Positions 41,420-62,086 of a stretch of 64,000 bases of DNA are shown here, one piece after another. Made by a program: the position numbers and the translations under genes. This stretch comes from Saccharothrix ecbatanensis (GTDB lineage Bacteria > Actinomycetota > Actinomycetes > Mycobacteriales > Pseudonocardiaceae), in assembly GCF_014205015.1 (NCBI RefSeq), contig NZ_JACHMO010000001.1:6758001-6822000 (forward strand), written 5' to 3'. The first letter of the stretch is position 1; each line of letters opens with the position of its first letter. A model generated the notes under the pieces. That model made no database searches. It saw only the letters and a program-made list of their open reading frames with translations, and was not told the origin of the DNA.

Positions 41420-41716
41420 GTGAGTCCTACGTTCAGAACGCGTGAGTCGTACCTTCAAAACCACCGTGTCCTACGTTCAGGACCTCCGAATTCAACGCTC
41501 AGAACAAACGATCTTGTACTGAACGTTGAACTCGGGGGTCGCGAACGTAGGACTCACCCGTCCTGAACGTAGGACTCACGGGGGCTGGAGGTTCGACACG
41601 CGGGGCCTGAGCGTTCGACACGCGCGTTCTGAGCGTTGAACTCGGGGGTTCCGAACGTAGGACTCACGCGTTCCGAACGTAGGACTCACGCGTTCCGAAC
41701 GTAGGACTCACGCGGG
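41420..41716. repeat. palindromic repeat element, copy A
   Basis: About 297 bp built of degenerate units GTGAGTCCTACGTTC and the reverse complement. It holds one exact forward unit (41420-41434), five exact reverse units, and three perfect tandem copies of a 22-bp unit at 41649-41670, 41671-41692 and 41693-41714. A central imperfect hairpin GAATTCAACGCTCAG...CTGAACGTTGAACTC lies at about 41488-41534. It begins directly after the stop codon of the MerR-type gene (41720) and runs up to the start of the gene at 41416. Two related copies occur at 52885 and 61848. Confidence 0.9.
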
Positions 41717-41719
41717 GGG

Positions 41720-42727
41720 TTAGCAGACGGCGCGTTCTACGGCGTCGGCCGCGGACGCCAGGTCGTTGATCCGCTCGGCCGGCTGCGGCACGACGCCGCG
41801 CTCCCAGCCGGGGCCCCCGGCGAAGATGCGGACCTGCTGACGGGTCCTCGGCAACGCCGTCACGACACCCGGATCGGCGTAGCGCGGCAGCTGGGCCCAC
41901 AGCACCACCGCTGCCGGCGCGGTGCGGCGCACGGCCACGGCCAGCGCGTCCGACGGCAACGCCGCCCCCAACTGCCTGGCACCGATCCCACGCTGCGCCA
42001 ACACCGCCGCCAACGGGTACAGCGGCAGGTTGTGCCGCTCGTCCGGCATGCACGCCAGCAGCACGGGCCGGTGGTTGCGCGGGCTCGTCACGACCGGCGT
42101 GGCGCGCAGCACGGCGGCCAGCACGCACTCCTCCACCAGGTGCGACACCTCGACCCCGCCACCCGACTGGTCCCACCTCGCCGCCAGCGCGGACATCACC
42201 GGACGGACCACCTCGTCCCACGTCGCCACCACGCCGTCCGCCTCGATCGCGTCGGCCAACAGCGTCTGCACCGCCGCCGAGTCCATCGCCAACGCCGCCC
42301 GCCCCACCCCGCGCGCCCGCCGGTTCGCCGACGGCAACCTGAGCCCACGACCACCGGCCGACGCGGACGCCCCGTCGAGCTCACCCCCGGTCAGCAACGC
42401 CTGGCCGACCCGCACCGGACGCACAGGGCTCGCGAGGGCGTACTTCGCGGCCTCGGCGGACGACGCCCCGCGCAGCAGCGCCCGCTGCATCAGCTCGAGG
42501 CGTGCTACATCGAGTGGCGCATATTTCCTGTGTCGCCCGGTCGTGTGATCGCTGGGTCCGAGTCCGTACCGGCGGTCCCAGGTGCGCAGAGTGGCCGGCG
42601 CGACACCCAACCTGCGGGCCACGGCGGCCACCGAGAGGGTCACCGAATGCGCCGGATCGTCTTCTGCCGCAAGGGTTTCCGGCTCGCCTTCCGGCACGGT
42701 CCCGGTGTGGTCGGGGGGCGTCATCAC
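41720..42727 (-). CDS. MerR-family regulator with cobalamin-binding-like domain (LitR/CarH-like)
   Basis: 335 residues. The N-terminal MerR helix-turn-helix (about 30-75: VAAVARRLGVAPATLRTWDRRYG) is followed by a helical bundle and a C-terminal B12-binding-type fold. The diagnostic signatures are altered. CarH-type W-x9-EH reads W-DQSGGGVEV-SH, and the ExHxxG cobalamin motif reads ERHNLP, keeping the His but losing the Gly. It may still bind B12, or the domain may be a relic. In light-sensing relatives AdoCbl controls carotenoid genes; no such genes are in this window. It is divergent from whiB, 186 bp apart. Confidence 0.82.
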   Translation of the reverse strand: MMTPPDHTGTVPEGEPETLAAEDDPAHSVTLSVAAVARRLGVAPATLRTWDRRYGLGPSDHTTGRHRKYAPLDVARLELMQRALLRGASSAEAAKYALASPVRPVRVGQALLTGGELDGASASAGGRGLRLPSANRRARGVGRAALAMDSAAVQTLLADAIEADGVVATWDEVVRPVMSALAARWDQSGGGVEVSHLVEECVLAAVLRATPVVTSPRNHRPVLLACMPDERHNLPLYPLAAVLAQRGIGARQLGAALPSDALAVAVRRTAPAAVVLWAQLPRYADPGVVTALPRTRQQVRIFAGGPGWERGVVPQPAERINDLASAADAVERAVC

Positions 42728-42826
42728 GCTGACATCGTCCGTTCACTTGACGTCACCGGCAACTCCGGGACGGGCACCGGCCGCTCACCCATCGAATGAA
42801 TTGCCGGAAAATGCCGCCGCACCCCC

Positions 42827-42855
42827 TTGAACAAGTTTTGGCGCGGTTCTACGGT
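42827..42855 (+). promoter_or_regulatory. candidate whiB promoter
   Basis: TTGAAC (42827-42832), 17-bp spacer, TACGGT (42850-42855), about 52 bp upstream of the whiB ribosome-binding site region (AAGGAGG near 42900). Plausible primary-sigma promoter. Confidence 0.4.
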
Positions 42856-42913
42856 GGATCATCGTTAAGCCGAATGGAGCAGTTCACGTCCATGGGCCAA
42901 GGAGGCGGTCTCG

Positions 42914-43210
42914 ATGGCGGACACCCGAAGGCTTCCCGGTCCCAACGCGGATCTGTGGGACTGGCAGATGCGCGGCTCGTGCCGCGGGATGGACAGCGCG
43001 TTCTTCTTCCACCCGGACGGGGAGCGCGGACCTGCACGGGCACGGCGGGAGGCACGGGCGAAGGCCGTGTGCCTGTCGTGCCCGGTGCTGGAGATGTGTC
43101 GGCGGCACGCCCTGGCGGTGCAGGAGCCGTACGGGATCTGGGGTGGTCTCTCGGAGTCCGAGCGGGACAGCATCATCAAGGCGCGCAAGCGGCAGTTGAC
43201 GCCCGCCTGA
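42914..43210 (+). CDS. WhiB-family iron-sulfur regulator
   Basis: 98 residues. Four cysteines C23, C53, C56 and C62 (C..CxxCxxxxxC) to bind [4Fe-4S]; GIWGG turn at 74-78; basic C terminus (KARKRQ). ATG 42914 with AAGGAGGCGG upstream. Position beside groEL1 equals whiB3 (Rv3416) in M. tuberculosis, so this is probably the WhiB3-type protein, a redox sensor that binds region 4 of the primary sigma factor. Convergent with groEL through a shared terminator. Confidence 0.92.
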   Translation: MADTRRLPGPNADLWDWQMRGSCRGMDSAFFFHPDGERGPARARREARAKAVCLSCPVLEMCRRHALAVQEPYGIWGGLSESERDSIIKARKRQLTPA

Positions 43211-43244
43211 CCAGGAAACAGGCGGACCGAGCACGCCGAACGCG

Positions 43245-43281
43245 CGGGAGGGGCGGCACCTCGCGGGTGCCGCCCCTCCCG
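43245..43281. terminator. bidirectional terminator whiB / groEL
   Basis: Perfect 16-bp stem CGGGAGGGGCGGCACC with loop TCGCG, between the convergent whiB and groEL genes. Confidence 0.9.
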
Positions 43282-43317
43282 TGCGCGCTGAAGACCCGTG
43301 GGTCAGTGACCCGTGGG

Positions 43318-44943
<1,626 letters not shown>

Positions 44944-44964
44944 TTAGCCTCTCTTGATGCGAAA

Positions 44965-45001
44965 CGCCCCGGGAAGCCCCGGTGAGGGGTTCGCCGGGGC
45001 G
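44965..45001 (-). other. intercistronic hairpin between groES and groEL1
   Basis: CGCCCCGG (44965-44972) pairs with CCGGGGCG (44994-45001), with a second inner stem (GCCCC/GGGGT). Located in the 81-bp gap of the operon, it could attenuate or protect the transcript and set the groES:groEL ratio. Confidence 0.5.
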
Positions 45002-45021
45002 CCTTGCGTGTCAGCCGATCG

Positions 45022-45315
45022 TCAGTTGATGACGGCCAGCACGTCGCGGGCGGAGAGGATGAGGTACTCCTCGCCGTTGTACTTGACCTCGGTGCCGCCG
45101 TACTTCGAGTAGATGACGACGTCGCCGACAGCCACGTCCACCGGGACGCGGTTGCCCTTGTCGTCGATCCGGCCGGGGCCCACCGCGATGACCTTGCCCT
45201 CCTGGGGCTTCTCCTTCGCGGTGTCCGGGATCACGAGGCCGGAAGCGGTCGTGGTCTCGGCCTCACTGGCCTGGACGACGATCTTGTCCTCGAGCGGCTT
45301 GATGTTCACGCTCAC
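45022..45315 (-). CDS. groES: 10-kDa co-chaperonin GroES
   Basis: 97 residues from GTG 45315 ([22 protein letters not shown]), with GGAGGT upstream; the open frame to 45432 crosses the CIRCE element and is not coding. Mobile-loop residues [21 protein letters not shown] and the roof region are conserved. Caps GroEL. First gene of the groES-groEL1 operon under the CIRCE element. Confidence 0.96.
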
Positions 45316-45416
45316 CGGGCTGACCTCCACGGTCGTCGAAAGCGTTGGCAGGTTGCGTTTACGGCTCCTGCCACCCCGCCGTCGCGGGGGTCGGGGCGGT
45401 TGCTGGTGCCGTGCAT

Positions 45417-45443
45417 CTAGCACTCTACCCATGCGAGTGCCAA
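45417..45443. promoter_or_regulatory. CIRCE operator (HrcA) and promoter of groES-groEL1
   Basis: CTAGCACTC-N9-GAGTGCCAA matches CIRCE (TTAGCACTC-N9-GAGTGCTAA) at 16 of 18 positions. On the minus strand it contains a TTGGCA -35-like element and a downstream TAGAGT/TAGAT -10-like stretch, so HrcA binding would block polymerase. It lies about 100 bp upstream of groES. Confidence 0.92.
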
Positions 45444-45461
45444 CGCTTCAACGAGCCCCCG

Positions 45462-47222
45462 TCACTCCTTCCGGGCACCCAGTCGCGCCACCCCCTCCAA
45501 ATCGGCGTGGAACTGCTCGAAACCACGCCTCAGCGCCTCCGACGCGCCCCTCATGGCCACGTCACGGGCCTTGTCGTCGAAGTCGACCTTCTCGTCCGGG
45601 TACGGGAACGCGCCGCGCAGCGCGACCAGCGCGCCGCCGATGGCGATGTCGGCCAGCGGTTCGAGGTCGAGCCACGGGATCGGCGGGTTCTCCGGCTTGC
45701 CCGCGAGCGGCCCCCACGGGTCGAGCCACGGCCGCAGCCGGGGTTCGACCACGATGATCTGGTCGATCACCCAGTGCAGGGTCTGGCACGCGCTCGCCTG
45801 CCTGCCGAGCACGTCACGGGCGTGCACGCCGATCTGGAACAGCTCGCTGAGGTGCACCCGGTCCAGGGTCGCGTCCGGCTCCATGAGCGTGGCCTCGACC
45901 AGCCGGTCGGACCAGACCAGGTCCCACCAGAACCGCGACCGCATGCACGTGATCCGGTCCGGCGGCGCGATCCACACGCCGACGTTGACGTAGTACTCCT
46001 TGATCTTGTCCAGCGCGGCGCGGCCGGACGGGCTGTAGAGGAACCCGGTGTGCTTGGACAGGTGCGTGCCGGGCGTGCCGCCACCGCCGCCGGGGAAGTC
46101 GTCGAACCCGCCGCCCTCGACCACGCCGATCAGGTTCACGTTGACGAAGTGGTGCCAGGTCGAGTCGGTGACGACCCGGCCGACGTCGCAGCGGTGGCCG
46201 TCGTAGGTCGACACCACGCCGAAGCTGTGCGCGACGGTCGCCTGCTTGAGGTTCGCGCCGGCGTCGGACGACGCGGTGTTGCCCGCCGGCACGCGGCCCC
46301 GGGCGACGATCTCGGGTGACAGCTGCCCGGTGCCGTCGGTGGCGTTCGGGTACTCGGGCGAACCGTCCCGGCACGCGCCGGCCAGGCTGGACGGGACCCG
46401 CGTCTCCCCCTCGTGCGGGTGGTCCGGGAAGACGTCGATCCGGCCCGTCCGGCCGCACATCACCGGGTGCGGGTAGCGGGCCTTCTTCAGGATGTTGGCG
46501 TACGTCGTGTAGAGCTTCAGGTCGAGCACCTGCGGCACGTCGTCGCTCTGGTCGCTGAACTGCGAGCCGGCGTCGTGGCCGACCCGGTTGGAGTCGTTGC
46601 GGCGGGAGGTGCCCATGCTCACCTCGCCGCCGCCGAAGTCCGCCCAGTGGCGCATGTTGCGGACCCGGTCCACCGAGCCGCACAGGGCGTTGCCGAGGGA
46701 GCCGTGGTCGCCGGTGGCGAAGATGCCACCGCCCTTGTTCATGTGCGCGGTGAGCGCGTTCAGCTCGGCGTCGCCCAGGCGGGTGGACGGGAAGCGGCCG
46801 GGGTTGCCGGAGCGGTTCGGGTAGGTGCCGTTGTGGAAGTTGGTCTCGATGCCGAACAGCCACACCTCGTCGAAGCTGTCGGGCGTGAAGTGGTTCGGGT
46901 CGTCGAACATGAAGCCCTTGATGCTGCGGGCGATGCCCGGCGCGCCCAGCATGACCGCGGCGTTGGTCACGTTGGTGCGGAGGTGCGCGACGGTGATCTC
47001 GAACCGCACGTAGCTGCGGCCGTCGTGGAGCAGGATGTCCACGAAGGTCTGGAGGCCGAAGTCGCCGAGGCCGAAGTCGAGCCCGCCGTCGGTGACGAGC
47101 AGGGTCTTCACCGTGCACGGTCGGCGCCACGGGAAGAGGATCGTCTGGTCTTCGAGGTGGAGCCTGGCACGTCTCTGCACGAGGTCGATGAGTCGTTGGT
47201 TGCTTGTTCCGATGCCATCCAT
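45462..47222 (-). CDS. uncharacterised 586-residue protein
   Basis: No family recognised with confidence. Features: N terminus MDGIGTSNQRLIDLVQRR; a Rossmann-like region (KTLLVTDGGLDFGLGDFG; VAHLRTNVTNAAVML; FDEVWLFGIE; LTAHMNKGGGIFATGDHGSLG, about 40-185) resembling the core of ThuA / class I amidotransferase-like folds; a Gly-rich loop (DFPGGGGGTPG, about 375); Trp-rich segments near 430; and Asp/Glu-rich helices at the C terminus. No signal peptide. It starts 124 bp from, and is divergent from, the phoD gene. Possibly an enzyme acting on carbohydrates or a stress protein; this is only fold-level inference. Confidence 0.65.
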   Translation of the reverse strand: MDGIGTSNQRLIDLVQRRARLHLEDQTILFPWRRPCTVKTLLVTDGGLDFGLGDFGLQTFVDILLHDGRSYVRFEITVAHLRTNVTNAAVMLGAPGIARSIKGFMFDDPNHFTPDSFDEVWLFGIETNFHNGTYPNRSGNPGRFPSTRLGDAELNALTAHMNKGGGIFATGDHGSLGNALCGSVDRVRNMRHWADFGGGEVSMGTSRRNDSNRVGHDAGSQFSDQSDDVPQVLDLKLYTTYANILKKARYPHPVMCGRTGRIDVFPDHPHEGETRVPSSLAGACRDGSPEYPNATDGTGQLSPEIVARGRVPAGNTASSDAGANLKQATVAHSFGVVSTYDGHRCDVGRVVTDSTWHHFVNVNLIGVVEGGGFDDFPGGGGGTPGTHLSKHTGFLYSPSGRAALDKIKEYYVNVGVWIAPPDRITCMRSRFWWDLVWSDRLVEATLMEPDATLDRVHLSELFQIGVHARDVLGRQASACQTLHWVIDQIIVVEPRLRPWLDPWGPLAGKPENPPIPWLDLEPLADIAIGGALVALRGAFPYPDEKVDFDDKARDVAMRGASEALRRGFEQFHADLEGVARLGARKE

Positions 47223-47346
47223 TCGCGTGTTCTCGCAATCCGTTCGCCGGGGGCGGCGGTGCCCCTCGTTGGACTGCGGAGTGCTGGATGCCCTGAGTAA
47301 TACCTGCGTTCACCCGTTCGCCACCCTGTTCGGTCACGGTGAGCGC

Positions 47347-48858
47347 ATGACGGTGACCCGACGTTCCCTGCTCATCGGCGGCGTGGCCCTCGCGACCGCG
47401 GCGACCGCGGGTGCGGGCTTCCCCAAGCTCGCCGACCCCTTCACGCTGGGCGTCGCTTCCGGCGACCCCCTGCCCGACAGCGTCGTGCTGTGGACGCGCC
47501 TCGCGCCGCGGCCGCTCGACGAGGACGGCCTCGGCGGTATGCCCGATCGGGTGATCCCGGTGCGCTGGGAGCTGGCCGAGGACGAGCGCTTCCAGCACGT
47601 GGTGCGGCGCGGCGTGCAGCCCGCCAAGCCGGAGTCCGGCCACAGCGTGCACGTGGAGCCGTTCGGCCTGCGGCCCGGCCGCGAGTACTTCTACCGGTTC
47701 CAGGTGGACGGTCATGTGTCCCCGGTCGGCCGCACCCGGACCGCGCCCGACCCGTGGGTGCTCGGGCAGGACCTGACCATGTGCTTCGCGTCGTGCGCGC
47801 ACTACGGCGAGGGCTACTTCACGGCGTACCGGCGGCTGGCCGAAGATCACCCGGACGTGGTCCTGCACCTGGGTGACTACCAGTACGAGTACGCGGCCAA
47901 GGCGGCGGACGTGCGGACGGTGCTCGGGCCGGAGACCCGGACGTTGGCCGACTACCGGCTGCGGCACGCCCAGTACAAGACGGACGCCGACCTCCAGCTC
48001 GCGCACGCCGTCGCGCCGTGGGTCGTCGTGTGGGACGACCACGAGATCGAGAACAACTGGGCCGACGACGTGCCCGAGCAGCCCGACCCGAACTTCGCGG
48101 CACGGCGTGAGGCGGCGTTCAAGGCGTACTACGAGAACATGCCGCTGCGTCGGGGCGCCCGGCCCAACGGCGTCGACCTCCAGCTCTACCGGCGGCTCGG
48201 CTGGGGCGGGCTGGTGAACTTCCACATGCTCGACACCCGGCAGTACCGGGACGACCAGGCGTGCGGCGACGGGTGGAAGACCTGCGCGGACGCCGCCCTG
48301 CCCGGCCGTTCGATCACCGGCGCGGCGCAGGAGGAGTGGCTGCTGGACGGGTTCCGCCAGTCCCGGGCGCGCTGGGACGTGCTCGGCCAGCAGGTGTTCT
48401 TCGCCGAGCGCGACCGCAAGGACGGGCCGGAGAAGGAGGTCTCCATGGACGGGTGGGACGGTTACCTCGCGTCCCGCGACCGGGTGACGCGCGGGTGGGT
48501 CGACGCGGGTGTGCGCAACGCCGTCGTGCTGACCGGTGACGTGCACGCGCACTACGCGGCGGACGTGAAGCTGGACTGGAACGACCCGGCGTCCCCCACC
48601 GTGGGCACCGAGCTGGTGTGCTCGTCGGTGACGTCCGGTGGGAACGGCAACGACACGGTCGACCAGGTGCAGTTGCGGAACAACCCGCACATCAAGCTGC
48701 ACAGCCGGCGGCGCGGGTACGTGCGGACGAAGTTCACCGCGCAGGAGATGCGGGCGGACTTCCGCACGCTGCCGTACGTGCGCACGGCCGGGGCCGAGGC
48801 CACGACGCTCAAGTCGTTCGTCGTCGAGGACCGCAACCCCGGCCTGAACCCCGTCTGA
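47347..48858 (+). CDS. phoD: alkaline phosphatase D (PhoD), Tat-exported
   Basis: 503 residues from ATG 47347; the frame is open upstream to 47035 but runs into the divergent gene. Twin-arginine signal RRSLLIGGVALATAA at 5-19. PhoD N-terminal FN3-like domain (LGVASGDPLPDSVVLWTRLAP) and a metallophosphatase core with CASC, LHLGDYQYEY, VWDDHEIENNW and TGDVHAHYAAD. Calcium/iron-dependent phosphodiesterase/phosphomonoesterase that scavenges phosphate and can act on teichoic acids. A PHO box was not identified. It abuts the convergent imine-reductase-like gene (stops adjacent). Confidence 0.93.
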   Translation: MTVTRRSLLIGGVALATAATAGAGFPKLADPFTLGVASGDPLPDSVVLWTRLAPRPLDEDGLGGMPDRVIPVRWELAEDERFQHVVRRGVQPAKPESGHSVHVEPFGLRPGREYFYRFQVDGHVSPVGRTRTAPDPWVLGQDLTMCFASCAHYGEGYFTAYRRLAEDHPDVVLHLGDYQYEYAAKAADVRTVLGPETRTLADYRLRHAQYKTDADLQLAHAVAPWVVVWDDHEIENNWADDVPEQPDPNFAARREAAFKAYYENMPLRRGARPNGVDLQLYRRLGWGGLVNFHMLDTRQYRDDQACGDGWKTCADAALPGRSITGAAQEEWLLDGFRQSRARWDVLGQQVFFAERDRKDGPEKEVSMDGWDGYLASRDRVTRGWVDAGVRNAVVLTGDVHAHYAADVKLDWNDPASPTVGTELVCSSVTSGGNGNDTVDQVQLRNNPHIKLHSRRRGYVRTKFTAQEMRADFRTLPYVRTAGAEATTLKSFVVEDRNPGLNPV

Positions 48859-49719: not shown

Positions 49720-49820
49720 GTGTTCTCTTGCTCCTTCAGGTGATGTGTTCCCCACTGTGGACGGGGGCGCGCACGATCCGCTGGGGGTTCGCTGGGGGTG
49801 GTCCGGTTACCGTCCTGAGC

Positions 49821-52169
49821 GTGAGATTCGGGGTGTTGGGGCCGCTCGGGGTGTGGACGGCGGGTGGTGCGGCGGTCCGGGTGCCGGAGGTCAAGGTTCG
49901 GCTGCTGCTGGCGGACCTGCTCGCGCACGAGGGGCGGCCGGTGTCGGCGGACCGGCTGGCGTTCGACCTGTGGGGTGACGAGCCGCCCGGCAACCCCGTG
50001 AACACGCTCCAGACGAAGGTGTCGCAGCTGCGGCGGGCGCTGGAGGCGGCCGAGCCCGGTGGCCGTTCGCTGGTGGCGCATGAACCGGCGGGGTACGTGA
50101 TCCGGGTGGACTCGTCCACTTTGGACGTTCTGCGGTTCCGGGAGCTGGTGGCCGCGGGGCGGTTCGGCGAGGCGTTGGCCTTGTGGCGCGGTGAGCCGCT
50201 GGAGGAGCTCGCCGACGCGCCGTTCGTGGCGCCGGTGGTGGCGCGCTGGACTTCGGAACGGTTGGCGGCACTGGAGGAGTTCGCTCGTACGGGTGAAGTC
50301 GATCTGGCGGCCGAGGTGGCGCGGCACCCGTTGCGCGAACGTTTGCGCGGCTTGCACATGCGTGCGCTGTACCGGGCCGGACGGCAGGTCGAGGCGCTGG
50401 AGAGCTACGCCGAACTGCGGCGGTTGCTGGCCGAGGAGCAGGGGTTGGAGCCCGGTCCGGAACTGGCCGCGCTGCACCAGGCGATGCTCAACCACGATCC
50501 GGCGCTCGGCGTTTCTGCGCTAGGCGTTTCTGCGCTCGGTGCTTCAGCGCTCGGTGCTTCAGCGCTCGGTGCTTCAGCGCTGGGTGTTTCGGCGCGTACG
50601 AACAACCTGCCCGTGCCAGTGAGCGACCTGGTCGGCCGGGAGAAGGCGGTCGCGGACCTGTGCGAGCTGCCCGGCCGGGCCCGGCTGGTGACGCTCACCG
50701 GTCCCGGCGGGGTGGGCAAGACCCGGCTGGCGCTGGAGGTCGCGCGGCGGGTGTCGGTCGCGGACGGGGTGTGGCTGGTCGAGTTGGCGGGCGTCGGGCG
50801 GGCCGAGCAGGTGGTGAGCGCGGTGGCCGACGTGCTCGACGTGCGCGAGGACGCGTCGGGGATGGCGTTGGTGGAGGCGTTGCGCGGCCGTGAAGTGCTG
50901 CTGGTGCTGGACAACTGCGAGCGGCTGGTCGAGCCGGTCGCCGCGCTGGTGTCCCGGTTGTTGCGGGCGGCGCCGGGTCTGCGGGTGCTCACCACCAGCC
51001 AGGAACCGCTCGGCCTGTCGTTCGAGACGGTGTGGGCTGTCCCGCCGCTGGACGTTTCCGACGCTGTCACGTTGTTCGCAGCGCGCGCTGCTGCCGCCGC
51101 TCCGGGCTTCACGCTGACTCCGTCCAACACGGTGGTGGTCGAGGCGATCTGCCGGCGGCTCGACGGGCTGCCGCTGGCGTTGGAGCTGGCCGCGACGCGG
51201 GTGCGGAGCCTGGGCGTGGACGCGCTGTTGGAACGGCTGGACGACCGGTTCCGGCTGCTGGCCACCGGGCATCGGGACGCGCCGGCCCGGCAGCGCACCT
51301 TGCGGGCGATGATCGACTGGAGTTGGGACGTGCTCGGTGAGGCCGAGCGGATCGTGCTGCGGCGGCTGTCCGTGCACGTGGACGGGTGCTCGCTGGACTC
51401 GGCGGAGTTCGTGTGCGCGGGTGGTGGGGTGGCTGCCGGTGAGGTGCTGGACGTGGTGACCCGTCTGGTGGACCGGTCGTTGGTGGTGGCGCCGGAGCAG
51501 ACGGGCGAGCCGCGGTTCCGGCTGTTGGAGTCGGTCGCCGATTACGGGCGGGAGCGGCTGCGTTCAGCGGGTGAGTTCGAGGAGGTGCGGCGGCGGCACG
51601 CGGCGTTCTACCTGGGGTTGGCGGAGCGGGCGGACCCGGAGTTGCGCGGGGCGCGGCAGTTGGCGTGGTTGGAGCGGCTGGACGCTGATACGGCGAACCT
51701 GCGTGCGGCGCATGACGCGTTGGATCCGGCTGAGGCGGCGCGGCTGGTGCGTGCGTTGACCTGGTACTGGTTCCTGCGTGGGCGGCTGCGGGAGGGGCGT
51801 CGGCTGATGACGGCCGACGATCCGGTGACGGTCGCTTGGCGCGCGGGGTTCGGGGTGCTGCTGGGTGAGGCGGCCGATCCGTCTGCCCTGTCCGGGACGG
51901 CCTTGATCGCTGATCGGGTGGACGAGGCGCGGACTCGGTGGTTCCTGGGTTACGTATTGTCTACAGTAGGCGATATGCCGACCGGGCGGCGGCTGACCGA
52001 CCAGGCGCTGGCGGCGTTCGAGGAGCTGGGTGACGACTGGGGCGTGGCCGCCGCGTACAGCGATCGGGTGAGTCAGGTGCTGGCGCGGGGCCAGGTGGAC
52101 GAGGCTCGGGAGGCGGCCGACCGCAGTGCCTCGTTGTTCACCTCTTTGGGTGAACGGTGGGGCAGCTGA
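49821..52169 (+). CDS. AfsR/SARP-type regulator with BTAD and NB-ARC ATPase (5' part of a frameshifted gene)
   Basis: 782 residues from GTG 49821 (RFGVLGPLGVW). OmpR-type winged helix (1-90) and BTAD bacterial transcriptional activation domain (about 95-240), then a linker of 15-bp repeats, NB-ARC P loop (TGPGGVGKTRLAL), Walker B LLVLDNCERL, and TPR helices beginning near 600. The frame stops at 52169 (GERWGS), in mid-TPR. The continuation is in another frame from 52157: the two protein texts join smoothly (GERWG-QLKAS) if one G is added to the GGGG at about 52158-52161. Such proteins activate secondary metabolism or neighbouring genes. Either a sequencing error, strain-specific disruption, or programmed slippage. 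Confidence 0.85.
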   Translation: MRFGVLGPLGVWTAGGAAVRVPEVKVRLLLADLLAHEGRPVSADRLAFDLWGDEPPGNPVNTLQTKVSQLRRALEAAEPGGRSLVAHEPAGYVIRVDSSTLDVLRFRELVAAGRFGEALALWRGEPLEELADAPFVAPVVARWTSERLAALEEFARTGEVDLAAEVARHPLRERLRGLHMRALYRAGRQVEALESYAELRRLLAEEQGLEPGPELAALHQAMLNHDPALGVSALGVSALGASALGASALGASALGVSARTNNLPVPVSDLVGREKAVADLCELPGRARLVTLTGPGGVGKTRLALEVARRVSVADGVWLVELAGVGRAEQVVSAVADVLDVREDASGMALVEALRGREVLLVLDNCERLVEPVAALVSRLLRAAPGLRVLTTSQEPLGLSFETVWAVPPLDVSDAVTLFAARAAAAAPGFTLTPSNTVVVEAICRRLDGLPLALELAATRVRSLGVDALLERLDDRFRLLATGHRDAPARQRTLRAMIDWSWDVLGEAERIVLRRLSVHVDGCSLDSAEFVCAGGGVAAGEVLDVVTRLVDRSLVVAPEQTGEPRFRLLESVADYGRERLRSAGEFEEVRRRHAAFYLGLAERADPELRGARQLAWLERLDADTANLRAAHDALDPAEAARLVRALTWYWFLRGRLREGRRLMTADDPVTVAWRAGFGVLLGEAADPSALSGTALIADRVDEARTRWFLGYVLSTVGDMPTGRRLTDQALAAFEELGDDWGVAAAYSDRVSQVLARGQVDEAREAADRSASLFTSLGERWGS
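50502..50591 (+). repeat. six tandem 15-bp repeats in the regulator linker
   Basis: Six units of GCGCTCGGTGCTTCA-type sequence (50502-50591), encoding ALGVS/ALGAS pentapeptides. The three central copies are identical. They lie between BTAD and NB-ARC and are a length-variable hinge. Confidence 0.9.
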
Positions 52170-52882
52170 AGGCGTCGTTCGGGTTGGGCATGCTGGCGCA
52201 GCTGGGCGGGGACAACGCGCGCGCCGAGGCCGTGCACCGCGAGGGGTTGCGGGTGGCCGAGGAGCTGCGGTCGTGGCCGGAGGTGTCGTACAAGCTGTCG
52301 TGGCTGGGGCGGGTCGCACTGACCGAGGGCGACTACGCGAAGGCCCGTGACCTGCATGAACGCGCTCGGCGGACGGCTGCTGAGCACGGGTTCTCGCCGG
52401 GTGAGGTGTACGCCGAGACGGGGTTGGCGTTGGGCGCTCGGCGGGAGGGGCGGCTGGACGCGGCGGAGGCTCACTGGGACCGGCTGCGGTCGTGGCACCG
52501 GCAGGTCGGGTTCGAGGCGGGTGGGACGTTGGCGTTGGCCGAGTTGGGGTTCGTGGCCGAGTTGCGCGGTGATGCGGAGCGGGCGTTGGCGTTGCAGTCG
52601 GAGGGGTTGGCGCTGGCCCGGCAGGTGGGTGATCCGCGGGCGATCGCGTTGGCGTTGGAGGGGGTGGCGGGCGCTCGGGCGTTGGCCGGTGACGCGGTGG
52701 GGGCCGCCCGGCTGTTGGGTGCGGCGACGGCGGCCCGTGCGTCCGTGGGGGTGCCTTTGCCGGCCGGTGAACGAGGTGACGTGGACCGCATCACCGCTCT
52801 GGCCCGCGCCGCGCTGGGCGCAGCCGGCTTCGCGGCAGCCTTCACCACCGGCCACGCCGAAGGCCTCGCCATCACCCCGTAA
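52157..52882 (+). pseudogene. TPR C-terminal part of the frameshifted AfsR/SARP-type regulator
   Basis: 241 codons in a different frame from, and overlapping, the previous one. Tetratricopeptide-like helices (LGMLAQLGGDNARAEAVHREGLRVAEEL; SYKLSWLGRVALTEGDYAKARDLHERA) continue the TPR domain of the upstream part without a gap. Its own GTG (52157) has no ribosome-binding site, so independent translation is unlikely. The stop (52882) is directly followed by palindromic element B. Confidence 0.75.
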
Positions 52883-52884
52883 CC

Positions 52885-53118
52885 CGCGCGAGCCGAACCT
52901 CCAGACCCCCGTGAGTCCTACGTTCAGAACGCGTGAGTCGTACCTTCAGGACCACCGTGTCCTACGTTCAGGACCCCCGAATTCAACGCTCAGAACAAAC
53001 GATCTTGTACTGAGCGTTGAACTCGGGGGTTCCGAACGTAGGACTCACGCGTCCTGAACGTAGGACTCACGGGGTCTGGAGGTTCGACACGCGGGACCTG
53101 AGTGTTCGACTCGCGTGG
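52885..53118. repeat. palindromic repeat element, copy B
   Basis: About 234 bp between convergent stops (52882 and 53121). The outer arms CGAACCTCCAGACCCC and the complementary GGGGTCTGGAGGTTCG enclose GTGAGTCCTACGTTC units, with a central hairpin CCCCCGAATTCAACGCTCAG/CTGAGCGTTGAACTCGGGGG (52974-52993 with 53010-53029; one mismatch) and loop core ACGATC. Same orientation as copy A, opposite to copy C. Confidence 0.9.
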
Positions 53119-53120
53119 GG

Positions 53121-55295: not shown

Positions 55296-55332
55296 AACAG
55301 ACAAGAGTACGGGTGGCACAAGCCACACTGGA

Positions 55333-55350
55333 CTTGACGTCCACGTCAAG
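55333..55350. promoter_or_regulatory. MerR-type operator/promoter element
   Basis: Inverted repeat CTTGACGT-CC-ACGTCAAG lies 16 bp upstream of the merR start, including a TTGACG -35-like hexamer. MerR regulators bind such dyads between -35 and -10, implying autoregulation of the merR-thioredoxin operon. Confidence 0.65.
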
Positions 55351-55366
55351 GCGGAGGATCGGGTCT

Positions 55367-56031: not shown

Positions 56032-56071
56032 CGTACGGCCTGCGGAGCAGCGGCCATGGAACAGTAAGGGG

Positions 56072-57397
56072 ATGCTGCTGCCCGCGCTGGCCACGCCGTC
56101 ATCGAAGATCGCCCTGAGGTTCCCCGACCGGGAACTGACGTACGAGCAGTTGGCCGTCGAAGCCCGCCGCGTCGCCTACGGGCTGGTGGGCAAGCGTCGG
56201 GTCGCGGTGTGGGCGCGGTCCACGCCCGAGACGTGCCTGGTGATCGTCGGCGCGTTGCTGGCGGGCGTGCCGGTCGTGCCGCTCAACCCGAAGATCGGCG
56301 AGAAGGAACTCGCCCACATCCTCGCCGACAGCACCCCTGACCTGGTCGTCGACGACGAGTTGCCGCACGGTGAGCCGGTCGACCTGCCCGAGCCGGACGG
56401 TGAGGCGCCCGCGCTGATCGTCTACACCAGCGGCACGACCGGGCCGCCCAAGGGCGTGGTGCTGCCGAGGCGCGCGCTCGCGACGAACCTCGACGCGTTG
56501 GCGCGGGCCTGGGAGTGGACCGAGGACGACGTCGTGGTGCACGGCCTGCCGCTGTTCCACGTGCACGGTCTGGGGATCGGGGTGCTCGGCCCGCTGCGGC
56601 GCGGCGGGACCGTGCACCACCTGGGGTCGTTCAGCGTGGCGAAGGCGGCGCAGGCGTTGGCCTCGGGCGGCACGATGATGTTCGGCGTTCCCACGATGTA
56701 CCACCGGATCGCGGCCGAGCCCGAGCACGCCGCCGCGTTCGGCAAGGCGAGGCTGCTGGTGTCCGGTTCGGCCGCGCTGCCCGCGTCCGTGCACGAGCGC
56801 ATCGAGCAGCTGACCGGCCAGCGCGTGGTCGAGCGGTACGGGATGACCGAGACGTTGATGAACACGAGCGTCCGCGCGGACGGCGACCGGCGGCCGGGCA
56901 CGGTCGGGCTGCCGCTGGACGGCGTGGAGGTGCGGGTCGTCGGCGAGGAGCCGGGCGAGATCGAGGTGCGCGGGCCGAACCTGTTCCTGGAGTACCTGAA
57001 CCGGCCGGACGCGACCGGGGGCGCGTTCCACGACGGCTGGTTCCGCACCGGTGACCTGGCCGTGGTCGAGCCGGACGGGTACCTGCGGATCGTCGGCCGG
57101 CGGGCCACGGACCTGATCAAGAGCGGCGGTTACAAGATCGGCGCGGGCGAGATCGAGAACGCCCTGCTGGAGCACCCGTCGGTGGTCGAGGTGGCGGTGA
57201 CCGGCGAGCCGGACGAGGACTTGGGCGAACGCGTGGTGGCTTGGGTCGTCGCGCGGGGCGAGGCGCCGGCGCCGGAGGTGTTGAGCGATCACGTGGCCCG
57301 GCTGCTGTCACCGCACAAACGTCCGAGAGTGGTGCGGTACCTGGAAGCGTTGCCGCGCAACGACATGGGCAAGGTGCTGAAGCGGGAACTCCGGTGA
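56072..57397 (+). CDS. matB: malonyl-CoA synthetase (MatB-like AMP-forming ligase)
   Basis: 441 residues, acyl-CoA synthetase superfamily. P loop YTSGTTGPPKG (about 117-127), LFHVHGLG (about 159-166), ERYGMTET (about 263-270), GWFRTGD (about 335) and the catalytic C-terminal lysine in NDMGKVLKREL. The text FHVHGLGIGVLGPLRRGG and NLFLEYLNRPDAT is very close to Streptomyces MatB, which ligates CoA to malonate or methylmalonate. Its stop overlaps the next gene (GTGA), so they form one unit. Confidence 0.88.
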   Translation: MLLPALATPSSKIALRFPDRELTYEQLAVEARRVAYGLVGKRRVAVWARSTPETCLVIVGALLAGVPVVPLNPKIGEKELAHILADSTPDLVVDDELPHGEPVDLPEPDGEAPALIVYTSGTTGPPKGVVLPRRALATNLDALARAWEWTEDDVVVHGLPLFHVHGLGIGVLGPLRRGGTVHHLGSFSVAKAAQALASGGTMMFGVPTMYHRIAAEPEHAAAFGKARLLVSGSAALPASVHERIEQLTGQRVVERYGMTETLMNTSVRADGDRRPGTVGLPLDGVEVRVVGEEPGEIEVRGPNLFLEYLNRPDATGGAFHDGWFRTGDLAVVEPDGYLRIVGRRATDLIKSGGYKIGAGEIENALLEHPSVVEVAVTGEPDEDLGERVVAWVVARGEAPAPEVLSDHVARLLSPHKRPRVVRYLEALPRNDMGKVLKRELR

Positions 57398-58611
57398 ACC
57401 CCTTGGGCTGGCCGGGTTACGAGGAGCAGCTCGCGCGGGCTCGGGAACGGTCCGGTGGCGCCGAATCGGTCTCGTGGCGGCGGCACCGGCACGCCGTGGT
57501 GATCAAGTTCGACTTCCGGTTCCTCGGCGGTTCGGTGGGCACGGCGACCGGAGCGCTGATCGAGCAGGCGTTCACCGAGGCGCGGGCCACGCACCTGCCG
57601 GTGGTGTCGATGATCGCGACCGGTGGCAGTCGCATGCAGGAGGGGATGCTGTCGTTGCGGCAGCTCCAGCGGGTGACGCGGTTGTGCGCGGCGCACCGGG
57701 AGGCCGGGCTGCCGCACGTGTCGGTGCTGTGCGACCCGACTACCGGCGGGGTGTGGGCGTCGCTGGGTGCCGGCGCGGACGTGGTGATCGCGGTGTCCGG
57801 GGCGCAGGTGGGGTTCGCGGGCAGCAGGGTTCGGCCCGACGACGATTGTGCTTATACGGCCGAAGGCCAGTTCGCGGCCGGGACGGTCGACATGGTTGTG
57901 GCGCGGGACGAAGTCGACCCGATCGTGTCACGGATCCTCGACGTGCTGACCCGTGGTGACGCGGTGCCGGCGGAGGTGCCGCGCGCTCTCGGTGCTCACT
58001 CGCTGCCCACGAACGGGTGGAGCGCGGTGTCTGGAGCGCGCGCTCCGGAACGTCCACGTGCGGCGGCTTACCTGGACGACTACTTCGACTTCCGCGTGCC
58101 GATCAGCGGTGACCGCGCGGGCGGGGTGGACCCAGGGATGCTGTGCGGCTTCGGGCGACGGGGTGAGCGTGCCATCGCTTTCGCCGCGCAGACCGGCACT
58201 GCCACCACCCCCGCCGGGTTCCGCACGGCGTCACGGCTGATCCGGCTGGCCGAGCGGTTCGCGCTGCCGGTGTTGACGTTGGTGGACACGCCCGGCGCGG
58301 CGAACGACGCGGCGGCGGAACGGGCGGGGGTGGGCGCGGCCATCGCGGAACTGTTCGCCACCGTTGCCGAGGCGCGCGTGCCGATCACCACGCTGGTGAT
58401 CGGGGAGGGTGGGTCCGGTGGGGCGTTGGCGTTGTCGTCGCCGGAGCACACGTGGATCACGCCGAACGCCTACTTCTCGGTGATCGCGCCGGAGTTGGCG
58501 GCGGCGATCCTCAAGCGGGACGATGTGCGGCAGCTCGCCGACGACCTACGGTTGAGGCCCCAGGACTTGGTCGAGCTGGGCGTGGTGCGCGGGATCCCGG
58601 ATCACCAGTAG
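57394..58611 (+). CDS. acyl-CoA carboxyltransferase (fused beta/alpha halves)
   Basis: 405 residues from GTG 57394, overlapping matB (GTGA). Two crotonase-like halves: an AccD-like N half (IKFDFRFLGGSVGTATG; ATGGSRMQEG; DPTTGGVWASLG) and an AccA-like C half (LVDTPGAANDAAAER; IGEGGSGGALAL). No N-terminal zinc finger. Carboxyltransferase of acetyl-CoA / propionyl-CoA or malonate type. No biotin carboxylase or biotin carrier gene is nearby, so partners must be encoded elsewhere. Pairing with matB suggests supply or conversion of malonyl-CoA. Confidence 0.85.
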   Translation: MNPLGWPGYEEQLARARERSGGAESVSWRRHRHAVVIKFDFRFLGGSVGTATGALIEQAFTEARATHLPVVSMIATGGSRMQEGMLSLRQLQRVTRLCAAHREAGLPHVSVLCDPTTGGVWASLGAGADVVIAVSGAQVGFAGSRVRPDDDCAYTAEGQFAAGTVDMVVARDEVDPIVSRILDVLTRGDAVPAEVPRALGAHSLPTNGWSAVSGARAPERPRAAAYLDDYFDFRVPISGDRAGGVDPGMLCGFGRRGERAIAFAAQTGTATTPAGFRTASRLIRLAERFALPVLTLVDTPGAANDAAAERAGVGAAIAELFATVAEARVPITTLVIGEGGSGGALALSSPEHTWITPNAYFSVIAPELAAAILKRDDVRQLADDLRLRPQDLVELGVVRGIPDHQ

Positions 58612-58866
58612 TCCACAGGCTACGGCCAGTTATCCACAGTCTCACCGTGGTCCGTCGCAGTTATCCACAGGCCAGCCGCGACCACCGCCGACCGTCGGTC
58701 CCCGCCGGTAAGATCAAAGCAGGGGTCCCCTTGGCGGGGACGCCTGCGGAGCGTGCGTGATCTCGGCCGGTCAGCCTGGTGCGGTCGGTGGGACCGGTGG
58801 GGGCCGGCGGGTCCGGTGGGTCCGGTGGCCGAGCACCGTTCCCCTCACCGCGTGGAGTTATCCACA
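58609..58866 (+). other. cluster of DnaA-box-like sequences
   Basis: Perfect TTATCCACA at 58630-58638, 58661-58669 and 58858-58866, all in the same orientation, plus TAGTCCACA at 58609-58617. These match the strict E. coli DnaA-box consensus. No dnaA, dnaN or AT-rich unwinding region is present, so this is not oriC in my view. A DnaA-titration or regulatory locus is possible. Confidence 0.6.
58694..58751. repeat. 58-bp hairpin repeat, copy 1
   Basis: Begins GTCGGTCCCCGCCGGTAAGA and contains GCAGGGGTCCCC/GGGGACGCCTGC (one mismatch) as a hairpin. About 85 percent identical by eye to the unit at 58892-58948. Lies in the non-coding gap after the carboxyltransferase gene. Confidence 0.8.
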
Positions 58867-58891
58867 GGCGGGCGTCGGGTGCACGGTTCCT

Positions 58892-58948
58892 GTCGGTACC
58901 CGCCGGCAAGATAAAGACAGGGGTCCCCTGGCGGGGACGCCTGCGTAG
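58892..58948. repeat. 58-bp hairpin repeat, copy 2
   Basis: Second copy: begins GTCGGTACCCGCCGGCAAGA, then ACAGGGGTCCCCTGG and GGGGACGCCTGC. It is preceded, like copy 1, by a TTATCCACAGG box (26 bp away here, 25 bp in copy 1), so box and hairpin seem to have been duplicated together. Confidence 0.8.
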
Positions 58949-59133
58949 CCCGCAAGCCGTTCTGGCTGAAGCCCGTTCAGGCTGAAGCCCTCGCCGCCAA
59001 GACCACCTGCCTGAAGGCCGTCGTGGCCGGGACCGTCGAGTCCGAAGGCCGTCGTGGCCGAGGCAGTCCTGGGCCGAAACGTCGTGACCGAAGGTCGCCG
59101 GGCCGGTAATTCAGGTCAGGCCGGCGGCCCGGA
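58949..59133. other. 185-bp intergenic with degenerate short repeats
   Basis: No gene. Contains two copies of GAAGGCCGTCGTGGCCG (59013-59029 and 59044-59060) and repeated GCTGAAGCCC words. Frames through it give only repetitive text. Function unknown. Confidence 0.5.
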
Positions 59134-59607
59134 TCAGACCGGAAGCTCGCGGTCGGTCCAAGCGCCGTGCGGATGCAGGTGGGCGATCCGCACGTCGTCG
59201 TCCCGCCGTTCCAGCCTGATCAACAGGTGGTCCTCGGACAGCCGCTCGGCCGCGCCCTCACCCCACTCCACCGCCACCACCGCGTCGACCAGGTCCGTGT
59301 CCAGGTCCAAGTCGTCCAGTTCGTCCAGATGCCCGCCGAGCCGATAAGCGTCCACGTGCACCAACGGCACACCGCGACCATCCGGCGCCGGCTCGTGCAC
59401 GCGTGCGATCACGAACGTCGGCGAGCTGACCCGACCCGTCACGCCCAGACCGTCCGCCAGCCCGCGCACGAGCGCCGTCTTGCCCGCGCCCAACGGCCCG
59501 GACAACAGCACCAGATCACCACCCCGCACCAGTCCGCCCAGCTTGCGCCCGAACTCCTCGGTGTCCCGCACCTCGGGGAGCGTCACGCTCACGCTCGTCG
59601 CCACCAC
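59134..59607 (-). CDS. tsaE: tRNA t6A biosynthesis ATPase TsaE
   Basis: 157 residues. P loop SGPLGAGKT (36-44), switch I-like SSPTF (61-65), Walker B region LVHVDAYRL and VEWGEG. ATPase that recycles the TsaB-TsaD complex during t6A synthesis. The GTG start lies 19 bp inside the end of the upstream hydrolase gene, so alr-hydrolase-tsaE are read as one coupled operon, in the order known from mycobacteria. Confidence 0.93.
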   Translation of the reverse strand: MVATSVSVTLPEVRDTEEFGRKLGGLVRGGDLVLLSGPLGAGKTALVRGLADGLGVTGRVSSPTFVIARVHEPAPDGRGVPLVHVDAYRLGGHLDELDDLDLDTDLVDAVVAVEWGEGAAERLSEDHLLIRLERRDDDVRIAHLHPHGAWTDRELPV

Positions 59608-60692
59608 CGTCGCCCGCTTTCCGACTGCTCGGCGGCACTGCGCCGAAGCAGACCGACCAGGTGCCCGGTGACCAGGTCGGGTTGTTCCAACATGAGCATG
59701 TGGCCCGCCCCGGACACGCGGACCAGTTCGCCGTGCGGCATCTCCTCGGCCATCCGCTCGGCGTGCGAGAACGGCGTCAGCTTGTCCGCGTCACCGCTCA
59801 TCACCAACACCTCGCAGTGCCGCAGACCGGCCAACGCCTTGTACCGGTTGTGCGTCCCGAGGGTTTCCAGGAACTCGGTGAGCACCTGCACCGTGGCGCC
59901 GTTGATCATCTGTTCCATCAGGTTCACCAGCGACGGGCTGATCTTGCCGGTGCCGAACGCCAACGCCCGGATACCGCTCCACGTGAGCGTGGTCGACCGC
60001 CGGCGGACCCACTCGACGAGGTCCGGTTGCAGGCCCGCGATCCTGCTGACGCCGAGCGTCACCGGGTTGTAGCGGGACAGCACGGACTTCGGCAGACCCA
60101 CGCCGCCGACCGCGCCCGCCGCCGTGCCGAAGAGCGCCACGCCGCGCACCCGTTCGGCGAACAGGTCCGGCCGCTCCTCGGCCAACGCCATGATCGTCAT
60201 ACCGCCCATGGAGTGGCCGACCAGCACCAACGGGCCTTCGGGCGCCATCGAGCGGATCACCGCGTCCAGGTCTTTGGCGCACTGGTCGATCGTGCTGCCC
60301 TCGGCGGTGGACCGACCGGAACGGCCGTGGCTGCGCTGGTCGTAGATCAGCTGGCGGACGCGCGGCTCGGTGAGGGTGGCGAGGTCGCGTCGCTGGAAGT
60401 GCCAGCAGCGGCGGTCGAGGGCGAAACCGTGCACGAGGACGACCGTGACGTCGGGTTTTCCGCCGTCCTGGGGGTCGACTTCCTCGACCGACAGCGGGAC
60501 GCCGTCGTCCGCCGCGACGGTCGACTCCCGGCTGGGCGTGAGGCGGCCCAGGGGTTCGTCGGCGAGCGGGTCGTCGGCGCGGCGGTCGTGCTCGACCTTC
60601 TTGTGGTTCGCCGCGACACCGACCGCGACACCCGTCGCGGCGGCGCCGAGGATGCCGCCGACCCAGCCGACGGCCTTCCACACCGTGTTCAC
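59589..60692 (-). CDS. alpha/beta-hydrolase with N-terminal membrane segment
   Basis: 367 residues from GTG 60692 (NTVWKAVGWVGGILG), overlapping the alr stop as GTGA; the frame stays open to 60782 inside alr. A hydrophobic Gly/Ala helix at about 5-25 (membrane anchor). Hydrolase core: VLVHGFALDRRCW, nucleophile elbow VGHSMGGM, acid in MSGDADKLTPF, and GAGHMLML with the catalytic His. Commonly found between alr and tsaE in actinobacteria; the substrate is unknown. Confidence 0.88.
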   Translation of the reverse strand: MNTVWKAVGWVGGILGAAATGVAVGVAANHKKVEHDRRADDPLADEPLGRLTPSRESTVAADDGVPLSVEEVDPQDGGKPDVTVVLVHGFALDRRCWHFQRRDLATLTEPRVRQLIYDQRSHGRSGRSTAEGSTIDQCAKDLDAVIRSMAPEGPLVLVGHSMGGMTIMALAEERPDLFAERVRGVALFGTAAGAVGGVGLPKSVLSRYNPVTLGVSRIAGLQPDLVEWVRRRSTTLTWSGIRALAFGTGKISPSLVNLMEQMINGATVQVLTEFLETLGTHNRYKALAGLRHCEVLVMSGDADKLTPFSHAERMAEEMPHGELVRVSGAGHMLMLEQPDLVTGHLVGLLRRSAAEQSESGRRWWRRA

Positions 60693-61813
60693 CGGCGCGT
60701 CCCGCTGTACGTCCTGGCCACCCTGGGCCGGTACATGCCGGTGACGATCTCGTAGTCGATGGTGCCGGTGGTGTCGGCCCACTCGCGGGCCGTCGGTTCG
60801 CCCTCGTCACCCGATCCGAACAGCACGACCTCGTCCCCCTCGGCCACCGCGTCGTCGCCGCAGTCGACCACGATCTGGTCCATGCAGACGCGGCCGACGA
60901 CCGGGCGGCGCTTGTGGGCGAGCCACACGTGCATCCGGTTCGAGAGGCTGCGCGGCACGCCGTCGGCGTAACCGACGGGCACCAGGGCCAGGTTCGTGTC
61001 GCTCTTGGCGGTCCAGCTCAGACCGTAGGACACGGATTCGCCGGCCGGAATGCGCTTGGCGAGGGCGACTGTGGAGCGGAACGTCATGACGGGGCGGAGG
61101 TCGGCCGGGACGGGGACCGGGTTGAGGCCGTAGATCGCGATGCCGGGGCGGACGAGGTCCAGGTGGAGGTCCGGGCGGGTGATGACGGCGGCGGAGTTGG
61201 CGAGGTGCCGGCGTGGGTCGAGGCCGGCGGCGAGGGCTTCGCGGTAGGCGTCGTCGAAGCGTTCGGCCTGGGCGTCGGTGGCGGGGTGGCCGACCTCGTC
61301 GGCGACGGCCAGATGTGACCAGATCGAGTGAACTTCGATGTTGGCGGTCTTGGCGGCCAGGTCGACCAGCGCGGGCCAGTCGGCGGCCGGGCAGCCGTTG
61401 CGGGACAGGCCCGTGTCGATCTTGAGGTGGACGCGCGCGGTCTTGCCCGCTTTCCCGGCCGCCGCGGTGATGTCCTTCAGCTGCGTGATCGAGGACGCGG
61501 CGAGGTCAACGTCCTGCTCGACGCCGGGGGTGTAGTCCGTCCCGGGCGGGTCCAGCCAGGCCAGGATCGGCACCGTGAACCCGGCTGCCCGCAGCGTGAG
61601 GGCTTCGGCGAGCGAGCAAGAACCGAGCCAGGTCGCGCCGGCCTCGACGGCCGCTCTCGCCACCTCCACGGCGCCATGGCCGTACCCGTCGGCCTTGACC
61701 ACGGCCATCGTGTCGGCGTCCTTGGCGAGGCCGTCGAGATAGGCCACGTTGTGCCGGAGGTTGTCGAGGTCGATCACGACCTCAGCGCGAGGAGCAGCCA
61801 TAACACCGCTCAT
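60689..61813 (-). CDS. alr: alanine racemase
   Basis: 374 residues. Interconverts L- and D-Ala for peptidoglycan. PLP lysine K40 (AVVKADGYGHG), the Tyr base in SYGLSW (about 262), and the conserved GRVCMDQIVVD. ATG 61813 or ATG 61801 both possible (if the latter, K36). A single alr in the window, first of the coupled alr-hydrolase-tsaE unit. The region upstream is occupied by palindromic element C. Confidence 0.95.
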   Translation of the reverse strand: MSGVMAAPRAEVVIDLDNLRHNVAYLDGLAKDADTMAVVKADGYGHGAVEVARAAVEAGATWLGSCSLAEALTLRAAGFTVPILAWLDPPGTDYTPGVEQDVDLAASSITQLKDITAAAGKAGKTARVHLKIDTGLSRNGCPAADWPALVDLAAKTANIEVHSIWSHLAVADEVGHPATDAQAERFDDAYREALAAGLDPRRHLANSAAVITRPDLHLDLVRPGIAIYGLNPVPVPADLRPVMTFRSTVALAKRIPAGESVSYGLSWTAKSDTNLALVPVGYADGVPRSLSNRMHVWLAHKRRPVVGRVCMDQIVVDCGDDAVAEGDEVVLFGSGDEGEPTAREWADTTGTIDYEIVTGMYRPRVARTYSGTRR

Positions 61814-61847
61814 GGTGACACAACCACCTACCGGCGGGTTCAGTGCC

Positions 61848-62086
61848 CAAACCCGCGAGTCGAACGCTCAGGCCCCGCGTGTCGAACCCCCAGCCCTCGT
61901 GAGTCCTACGTTCAGGACCCGTGAGTCCTACGTTCGCGTACCCCGAGTTCAACGCTCAGAACAAGATCGTTTGTTCTGAGCGTTGAACTCGGGGGTCCTG
62001 AACGTAGGACACGGTGGTCCTGAAGGTACGACTCACGCGTTCTGAAGGTACGACTCGCGCGTTCTGAAGGTAGGACTCACGCGGGG
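61848..62086. repeat. palindromic repeat element, copy C
   Basis: About 239 bp, from ACCCGCGAGTCGAACGCTC-like sequence to the nnr stop. A perfect 24-bp stem (61941-61964 with 61971-61994) with loop GATCGT is the centre; forward units GTGAGTCCTACGTTC occur at 61910-61924 region and its tandem neighbour, and reverse variants GAACGTAGGACAC, GAAGGTACGACTC and GAAGGTAGGACTCAC follow. The loop is the reverse complement of that in copies A/B, so this copy is inverted. Confidence 0.9.

Follow-up and report, generated by a model that had tools for sequence, protein, structure and literature searches.

Polar arrays of 22-bp units stand behind stop codons in one clade of Saccharothrix

We analysed a 64,000-nt stretch of the Saccharothrix ecbatanensis genome (contig NZ_JACHMO010000001.1, positions 6,758,001 to 6,822,000), called the window here, with positions counted from its first nucleotide; the genome as a whole is designated G000. 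A preliminary description of this stretch had marked three large palindromic copies of one element, and all three lie where it placed them, with limits in our scan of 41420-41711 (copy A), 52888-53114 (copy B), and 61855-62080 (copy C). Copy B occupies the gap between two convergent genes. On its left, a TPR-protein gene (52157-52882, plus strand) ends with the stop codon TAA (52880-52882) 5 bp ahead of the element; on its right, the minus-strand open reading frame of tsaD (TsaD, PF00814; 53121-54209) has its stop codon 6 bp from the element's end. The left half of copy B (52888-52998, plus strand) consists of four body units and a cap, with one additional base behind the first unit; the loop ACGATC (52999-53004) follows, and then the right half (53005-53114, minus strand), a cap and four body units. 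Copy C has the same composition, with a plus-strand half-element (61855-61964) and a minus-strand half-element (61971-62080) around the loop GATCGT (61965-61970), and it ends 6 bp from the stop codon of an NAD(P)HX dehydratase/epimerase gene (PF01256, PF03853; 62087-63481, minus strand).

Copy A is no single symmetric palindrome: it comprises three half-elements, and its right side holds two of these as a tandem. A plus-strand half-element of three body units and a cap (41420-41507; cap 41486-41507) is separated by the loop ACGATC between two caps (41508-41513) from a minus-strand half-element of a cap and four body units (41514-41623; cap 41514-41535), which is followed by another of a cap and three body units on the same strand (41624-41711). 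The last of these lies 8 bp from the stop codon (41720-41722) of a MerR-type regulator gene (open reading frame 41720-42727, minus strand). A stop codon is thus found 5-8 bp from each copy, and for copy B at both ends, a feature that the preliminary description does not mention. Because the loop reads GATCGT in C and ACGATC in A and B, copy C is inverted relative to the others, as had been proposed; A and C are 92% complementary over 210 nt, and B and C 93% over 206 nt. The perfect 24-bp stem ascribed to copy C also holds, its predicted fold containing 24 consecutive pairs. A lone weak unit (score 11) at 49810-49831, near the start of a gene at 49833, may be a remnant or a chance match.

The preliminary description expected many copies per genome and set against this the case of no further copies, which did not arise. 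The 13-mer core GAGTCCTACGTTC occurs 158 times in forward and 160 times in reverse orientation in the 9.69-Mb genome, a total of 318 exact matches compared with 0 and 0 for the control, which excludes chance. The first 100 places fall into 39 clusters (manual count), from which we extrapolate an estimated 120 or so elements in the genome. They are sparse far from the replication origin: dnaA lies at 7.44 Mb, and the 29% of the chromosome from 1.724 to 4.503 Mb holds 11 of the 318 core matches (manual count).

A search with GWGTCSWACGYTC divided 25 Saccharothrix genomes into 14 with 70-528 matches and 11 with 0-3, with 0 or 1 for the controls. In a tree built from the tsaD and NAD(P)HX sequences (genome G155 had no tsaD match), one branch with a support of 0.999 separates the 14 array-bearing genomes from the other 11. 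This split along a single branch fits one gain of the array family, in one Saccharothrix clade. Beyond the genus, 7 of 143 genomes of the family have one 13-mer match apiece. Named carriers among the matches listed are Saccharothrix sp. NRRL B-16314, S26, and NRRL B-16348, S. luteola, and S. deserti.

To describe the repeat unit, we scanned the window with a position-weight matrix, together with 60 further stretches of G000, a sample made up of exact-match picks and five arbitrary 20-kb stretches, one of which contained elements. At a score of 10, the scan gave 512 matches in the real sequence and 3 in a 3-mer-shuffled version, and 71 elements had at least two units: 45 inward-facing, 24 one-sided, and 2 outward-facing. 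Within an arm, 383 of 389 neighbouring pairs of units are spaced at 22 bp, and most arms (101 of 118) contain three to five units. There are two kinds of unit, the body (GAGTCCTACGTTCAGAAC and relatives) and the cap (GARTTCAACGCTCAGAAC and relatives). Read in unit direction, the cap is the last unit in 88 of 93 one-sided arrays (in 3 it occurs elsewhere too), and caps hold both innermost positions in 87 of 95 inward elements; for these cap counts, the named loci were not deduplicated and overlap with the genome G158. Since the cap ends one-sided arrays and also forms the innermost units of inward elements, the elements are assembled from polar half-elements, and a palindrome arises where two of these meet with their caps together. 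The earlier view of a large palindromic element therefore stands as far as inverted halves face each other, but the palindrome is not the basic unit. Columns 3, 6, 11, and 15 of the unit carry one base at 96-100% in all five sets, while other columns switch between sets, and these invariant bases seem to be recognised by something.

The arrays keep close to stop codons. From the outer edge of an array to the stop codon, the median distance was 6 bp in G000 (interquartile 3-12, n = 76) and 4 bp at named loci (2-8, n = 105, among the matches listed); the latter were picked by an exact 15-mer (at least 118 loci, 92 with elements), and this set and the G158 set overlap. A stop codon lay within 30 bp of 59 of the 71 G000 elements and of 78 of 90 at named loci (among the matches listed), leaving 12 without one in each, and within 15 nt of 53 of the 71. 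The first unit supplies the stop codon itself, through its TGA, at 13 gene ends in the G000 sample. Bases +1 to +3 behind the stop are rich in C at array ends (0.78, 0.89, and 0.78; n = 18) relative to other gene ends (0.46, 0.58, and 0.43; n = 191). Because gene calling relied on a simple codon-bias script, stop positions are more reliable than starts; stop-finder rows that gave no stop or ran into a neighbouring gene were left out, among them those of G153 and G165 at tsaD and of G088, G165, and G158 at NAD(P)HX.

The orientation of the flanking genes is also skewed. Four contiguous regions totalling 1.58 Mb hold 46 elements, of which 25 lie in convergent, 21 in codirectional, and 0 in divergent gaps, compared with 117, 420, and 209 among the 746 background gaps of at least 60 bp in the same regions. 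Divergent gaps contain 3 of the 71 elements of the G000 sample and 2 of the 90 at named loci (among the matches listed). The unit abutting a gene is directed away from it in 175 of 221 cases over five sets (70/76 in G000, 6/6 in G158, 10/16 in G165, 13/18 in G088, and 76/105 at named loci, among the matches listed). Exceptions, with the abutting unit toward the gene, number 6/76 in G000, 6/16 in G165, 5/18 in G088, and 29/105 at named loci (among the matches listed).

We compared array sites between species in regions paired through reciprocal best hits; at the protein level, G158 is on average 94% identical to G000, G165 88%, and G088 88%. Counting a convergent site twice, array-bearing gene ends were distributed (both genomes/G000 only/other only/neither) as 8/1/1/242 for G158, 13/3/4/311 for G165, and 13/3/6/297 for G088. 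The species also have one-sided arrays (at gene 54 in the G000 region) and an outward element (at genes 46/47) in common. Behind a one-sided array, on the 3' side of gene 54 and in locus L056 near 850-910, a CACGATC.GGTGAA stretch ahead of the next gene is conserved between species and is perhaps that gene's promoter or leader.

While the sites last, their letters change. Arrays at shared sites were about as similar as mismatched site pairs: 0.781 versus 0.785 for G088 (9 sites; 801 of 1000 permutations reach the observed value), 0.789 versus 0.786 for G165 (9 sites; 335 of 1000), and 0.884 versus 0.873 for G158 (6 sites; 148 of 1000). Copies at the same sites resemble one another within a genome (0.888-0.915 in G000, 0.856 in G088), with G165 the exception at 0.775. 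A canonical layout with a GATC loop is present in 33 copies in G000, with 94.3% mean identity over 160 nt; some of these copies occupy shared sites at which the layout in G165 and G088 is a different one, and G158 keeps the unit order of G000 at site 338 but with a different loop. The plainest reading of these patterns is that gene conversion homogenises the dispersed copies, and repeated replacement at the same places is a possible alternative. Columns 3, 6, 11, and 15 stay fixed while others switch, which would not be expected from conversion alone.

A few sites differ in occupancy. Site 267 carries a 66-bp half-element in G000 and G158, immediately downstream of an ordinary hairpin, and lacks it in G165 and G088. 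Site 243 shows the opposite pattern, and the array-less genome G166 is empty there. As the array stands behind an ordinary hairpin at both sites, a terminator would already be present, and inspection by eye found no evident target duplication at either. Gene 121 has arrays in G000, G165, and G088; their place in G166 holds an ordinary hairpin, and on the same side G158 carries a GC-rich one. In this small sample, hairpins of at least 9 bp in G166 are in no excess at the orthologous ends (3 of 6, versus 8 of 14 other ends). At the 3' sites of tsaD, an insertion with ends starting AGAGCGTTATTCA splits an array unit, as a short palindromic remnant in G152 (L216) and a longer element in G160 (L219); its place inside a unit suggests that arrays are targets of an insertion sequence.

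The window copies are predicted to fold at -177.8 (A), -173.8 (B), and -161.2 kcal/mol (C), with z-scores of -13.2, -17.7, and -14.4, and the mean z over 20 two-sided elements is -15.4. The 24 one-sided arrays do not exceed shuffles (mean z -0.7, 1 of 24 below -3), nor do they with 60 nt beyond them included (mean z -0.3). The suggestion of a structured 3'-UTR element thus describes two-sided copies but not one-sided arrays. Pairing between oriented canonical arms of G000 (33 copies) is not above shuffled arms (1065, 885, 1237, and 1447 of 2000 shuffles for units 0-3), and for pooled centres (70 distinct, 8 sets) 145 of 2000 shuffles match at or above the observed level. Innermost arms do pair above the shuffled level in G165 (n = 6; 3 of 2000 shuffles) and in G000 (2 of 2000), where the arms were unoriented and element polarity confounds the test, and centre column 8 is paired in 62 of 70 compared with 51 expected. 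Pairing may matter at the centre; to judge from these comparisons, it is not a general kept feature of the arrays.

That no named family fits, as the preliminary description stated, agrees with our searches. No Rfam match reached gathering score in the window; copy B matched neither phage nor plasmid, which led us to reject such a source; and the four core strings were not found in the searched open full-text literature, a body with subscription papers mostly outside it. Literature on Saccharothrix repeats, of the same scope, does not mention the array family among the matches listed.

The REP class that had been proposed does not describe these arrays. REP units, as defined and linked to RAYTs in two accounts (PMC3733652, PMC2817692), are 20-40 bp long and themselves palindromes; most of them follow coding regions and separate genes that are convergent or run in one direction (PMC3733652). 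Like the REP/BIME sequences of E. coli, Pseudomonas, and Stenotrophomonas, the arrays are high-copy extragenic mosaic repeats in both orientations and mostly behind genes, but their 22-bp unit is not itself palindromic and forms phased direct repeats with a cap. GTAG, which like CGTC can tag one end of a REP, is not conserved in them (248 of 507 units in G000, 4 of 73 in G088), and they lack a RAYT link: the Y1 transposase (PF01797) occurs in 3 of the 14 genomes with arrays and in 2 of the 11 without, with none in the two richest array genomes. On unit structure, tag, and transposase, we rejected a REP/RAYT system. With one-sided arrays unfolded and neither RAYTs nor Mu-type proteins tracking the arrays, the family does not belong among REPs and is not just an RNA hairpin either. 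G000 has a Y1 domain at C1:7231169-7231480, in a 260-aa open frame; across the genus, this domain is unlinked to array number.

Other known systems share part of the design. REPINs, or paired REPs, likewise form one long hairpin from two inverted halves and, according to one study (PMC8049555), persist as populations of copies, but single halves of the arrays are common and shared between species, and RAYTs show no link to them. U-less (I-shaped) intrinsic terminators of GC-rich bacteria also stand directly behind the stop codon, and two-sided arrays would form a comparably strong stem; one-sided arrays are stemless, however, and the family keeps sequence columns rather than pairing. MITEs are similarly short, non-coding, inverted, and dispersed, whereas halves of the arrays occur alone, with no target duplication (by eye, two sites) and no autonomous partner found (by eye, eight pairs of neighbouring arrays). 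The MITE class that had been proposed may still apply, since a 66-bp half-element is present in some species and missing in others. The ends of Tn7-type transposons carry several 22-bp TnsB sites. Sites of about 22 bp in inverted sets behind genes are thus a likeness, but the arrays are strictly phased head to tail, and the Mu-type C domain (PF09299) is absent from G000 and occurs in 2 of the 14 genomes with arrays and in 3 of the 11 without. As it does not track the family, a Tn7/Mu-like mobiliser was rejected. So was a gene carried between facing arrays: nine neighbouring pairs lie within 3.5 kb of each other (named loci, among the matches listed), and in the eight inspected the longest open reading frames resembled ordinary genes, judged by eye on the first 60 residues of up to three per pair, including what we take to be an ABC-F-like ATPase and a NagA-like deacetylase.

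Our leading interpretation, to which we give a probability of roughly 35%, is that the arrays are a protein-bound, sequence-specific boundary at gene ends, homogenised by gene conversion. A putative protein would bind the 22-bp units side by side on double-stranded DNA and read their invariant bases; because 22 bp is about two DNA turns, every site would face the same side. The bound array would stop RNA polymerase and so end transcription, the step with the least support, and would insulate neighbouring, often convergent, genes. Conversion, which breaks at the long palindromes could trigger, would keep the copies within a genome alike. A sequence-specific factor would explain the invariant bases, the phasing, the grammar, the place, and the upkeep of unstructured arrays, and the boundary is also favoured by the retention of one-sided arrays between species, the shared sites, the outward direction of most abutting units, the preference for convergent over divergent gaps, and the ordinary hairpin that G166 carries in place of an array at gene 121. 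Against it stand the terminator hairpins already at sites 243 and 267, the lack of hairpin excess at orthologous ends in G166, the polarity exceptions, the few elements in divergent gaps, and the elements with no stop codon within 30 bp. A more specific version, which we think rather doubtful, has a dedicated DNA-binding protein reading the polar, capped array as hairpin-free gene-end punctuation, with sites that persist and letters that conversion rewrites in step with the protein.

Nearly as likely as a gene-end boundary is a BIME-like selfish repeat, in which a putative enzyme would recognise the invariant bases and copy half-elements to new places; the copies would survive best behind genes because those elsewhere do harm. 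High copy number, a single origin followed by differing copy numbers, the opposite occupancy of sites 243 and 267, and the uniformity of the 33 canonical copies would all follow, and REPs too prefer the ends of genes (PMC3733652). Unselected DNA should be lost, however, and most array sites are common to relatives at 88% protein identity; the transposases considered (Y1 and Mu-type), each in 5 of 25 genomes, do not track the arrays, target duplication is not evident by eye at sites 243 and 267, and the distance to the stop codon is tighter than safety alone needs.

The two remaining explanations account for less. Gyrase or a nucleoid protein on the arrays might relieve or store supercoils between convergent genes, in keeping with the convergent enrichment and two-turn phasing, but such a role needs neither closeness to stop codons nor orientation to the gene, and gyrase is generally considered universal in bacteria while arrays are present in only 14 of 25 genomes. 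We consider it improbable, even with the strong gyrase binding reported for BIME-2 (PMC2817692). Least probable, by a little, is that the transcribed palindrome acts as an RNA hairpin that ends transcription without a U tract, protects the mRNA 3' end, or stalls ribosomes at the stop codon. The folding of two-sided copies and the pairing at innermost arms and column 8 would suit it, as would two reports, of structured 3' ends without a U tract in Streptomyces clavuligerus (PMC8269248) and of ribosome stalling by E. coli REPs within 15 nt of the stop (PMC12306157), a distance that three-quarters of the G000 elements (53/71) share. It leaves a third of the elements (24/71), one-sided and unstructured, unaccounted for, the canonical arms show no pairing beyond the shuffled level, and 145 of 2000 shuffles equal or exceed the pooled centres.

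Most comparable interspersed repeats described in bacteria are short palindromes that RAYTs mobilise. In the arrays, by contrast, each genome has hundreds of units that are not palindromes; they follow stop codons, obey a strict grammar and, as the tree suggests, have a single origin in one clade. They would represent a case of concerted evolution in dispersed non-coding bacterial DNA. Lasting sites, changing letters, and a few near-fixed bases make them a natural experiment in telling selfish DNA from working gene-end signals, and with 14 genomes that have arrays and 11 that do not, the responsible factor should be findable by comparative genomics.
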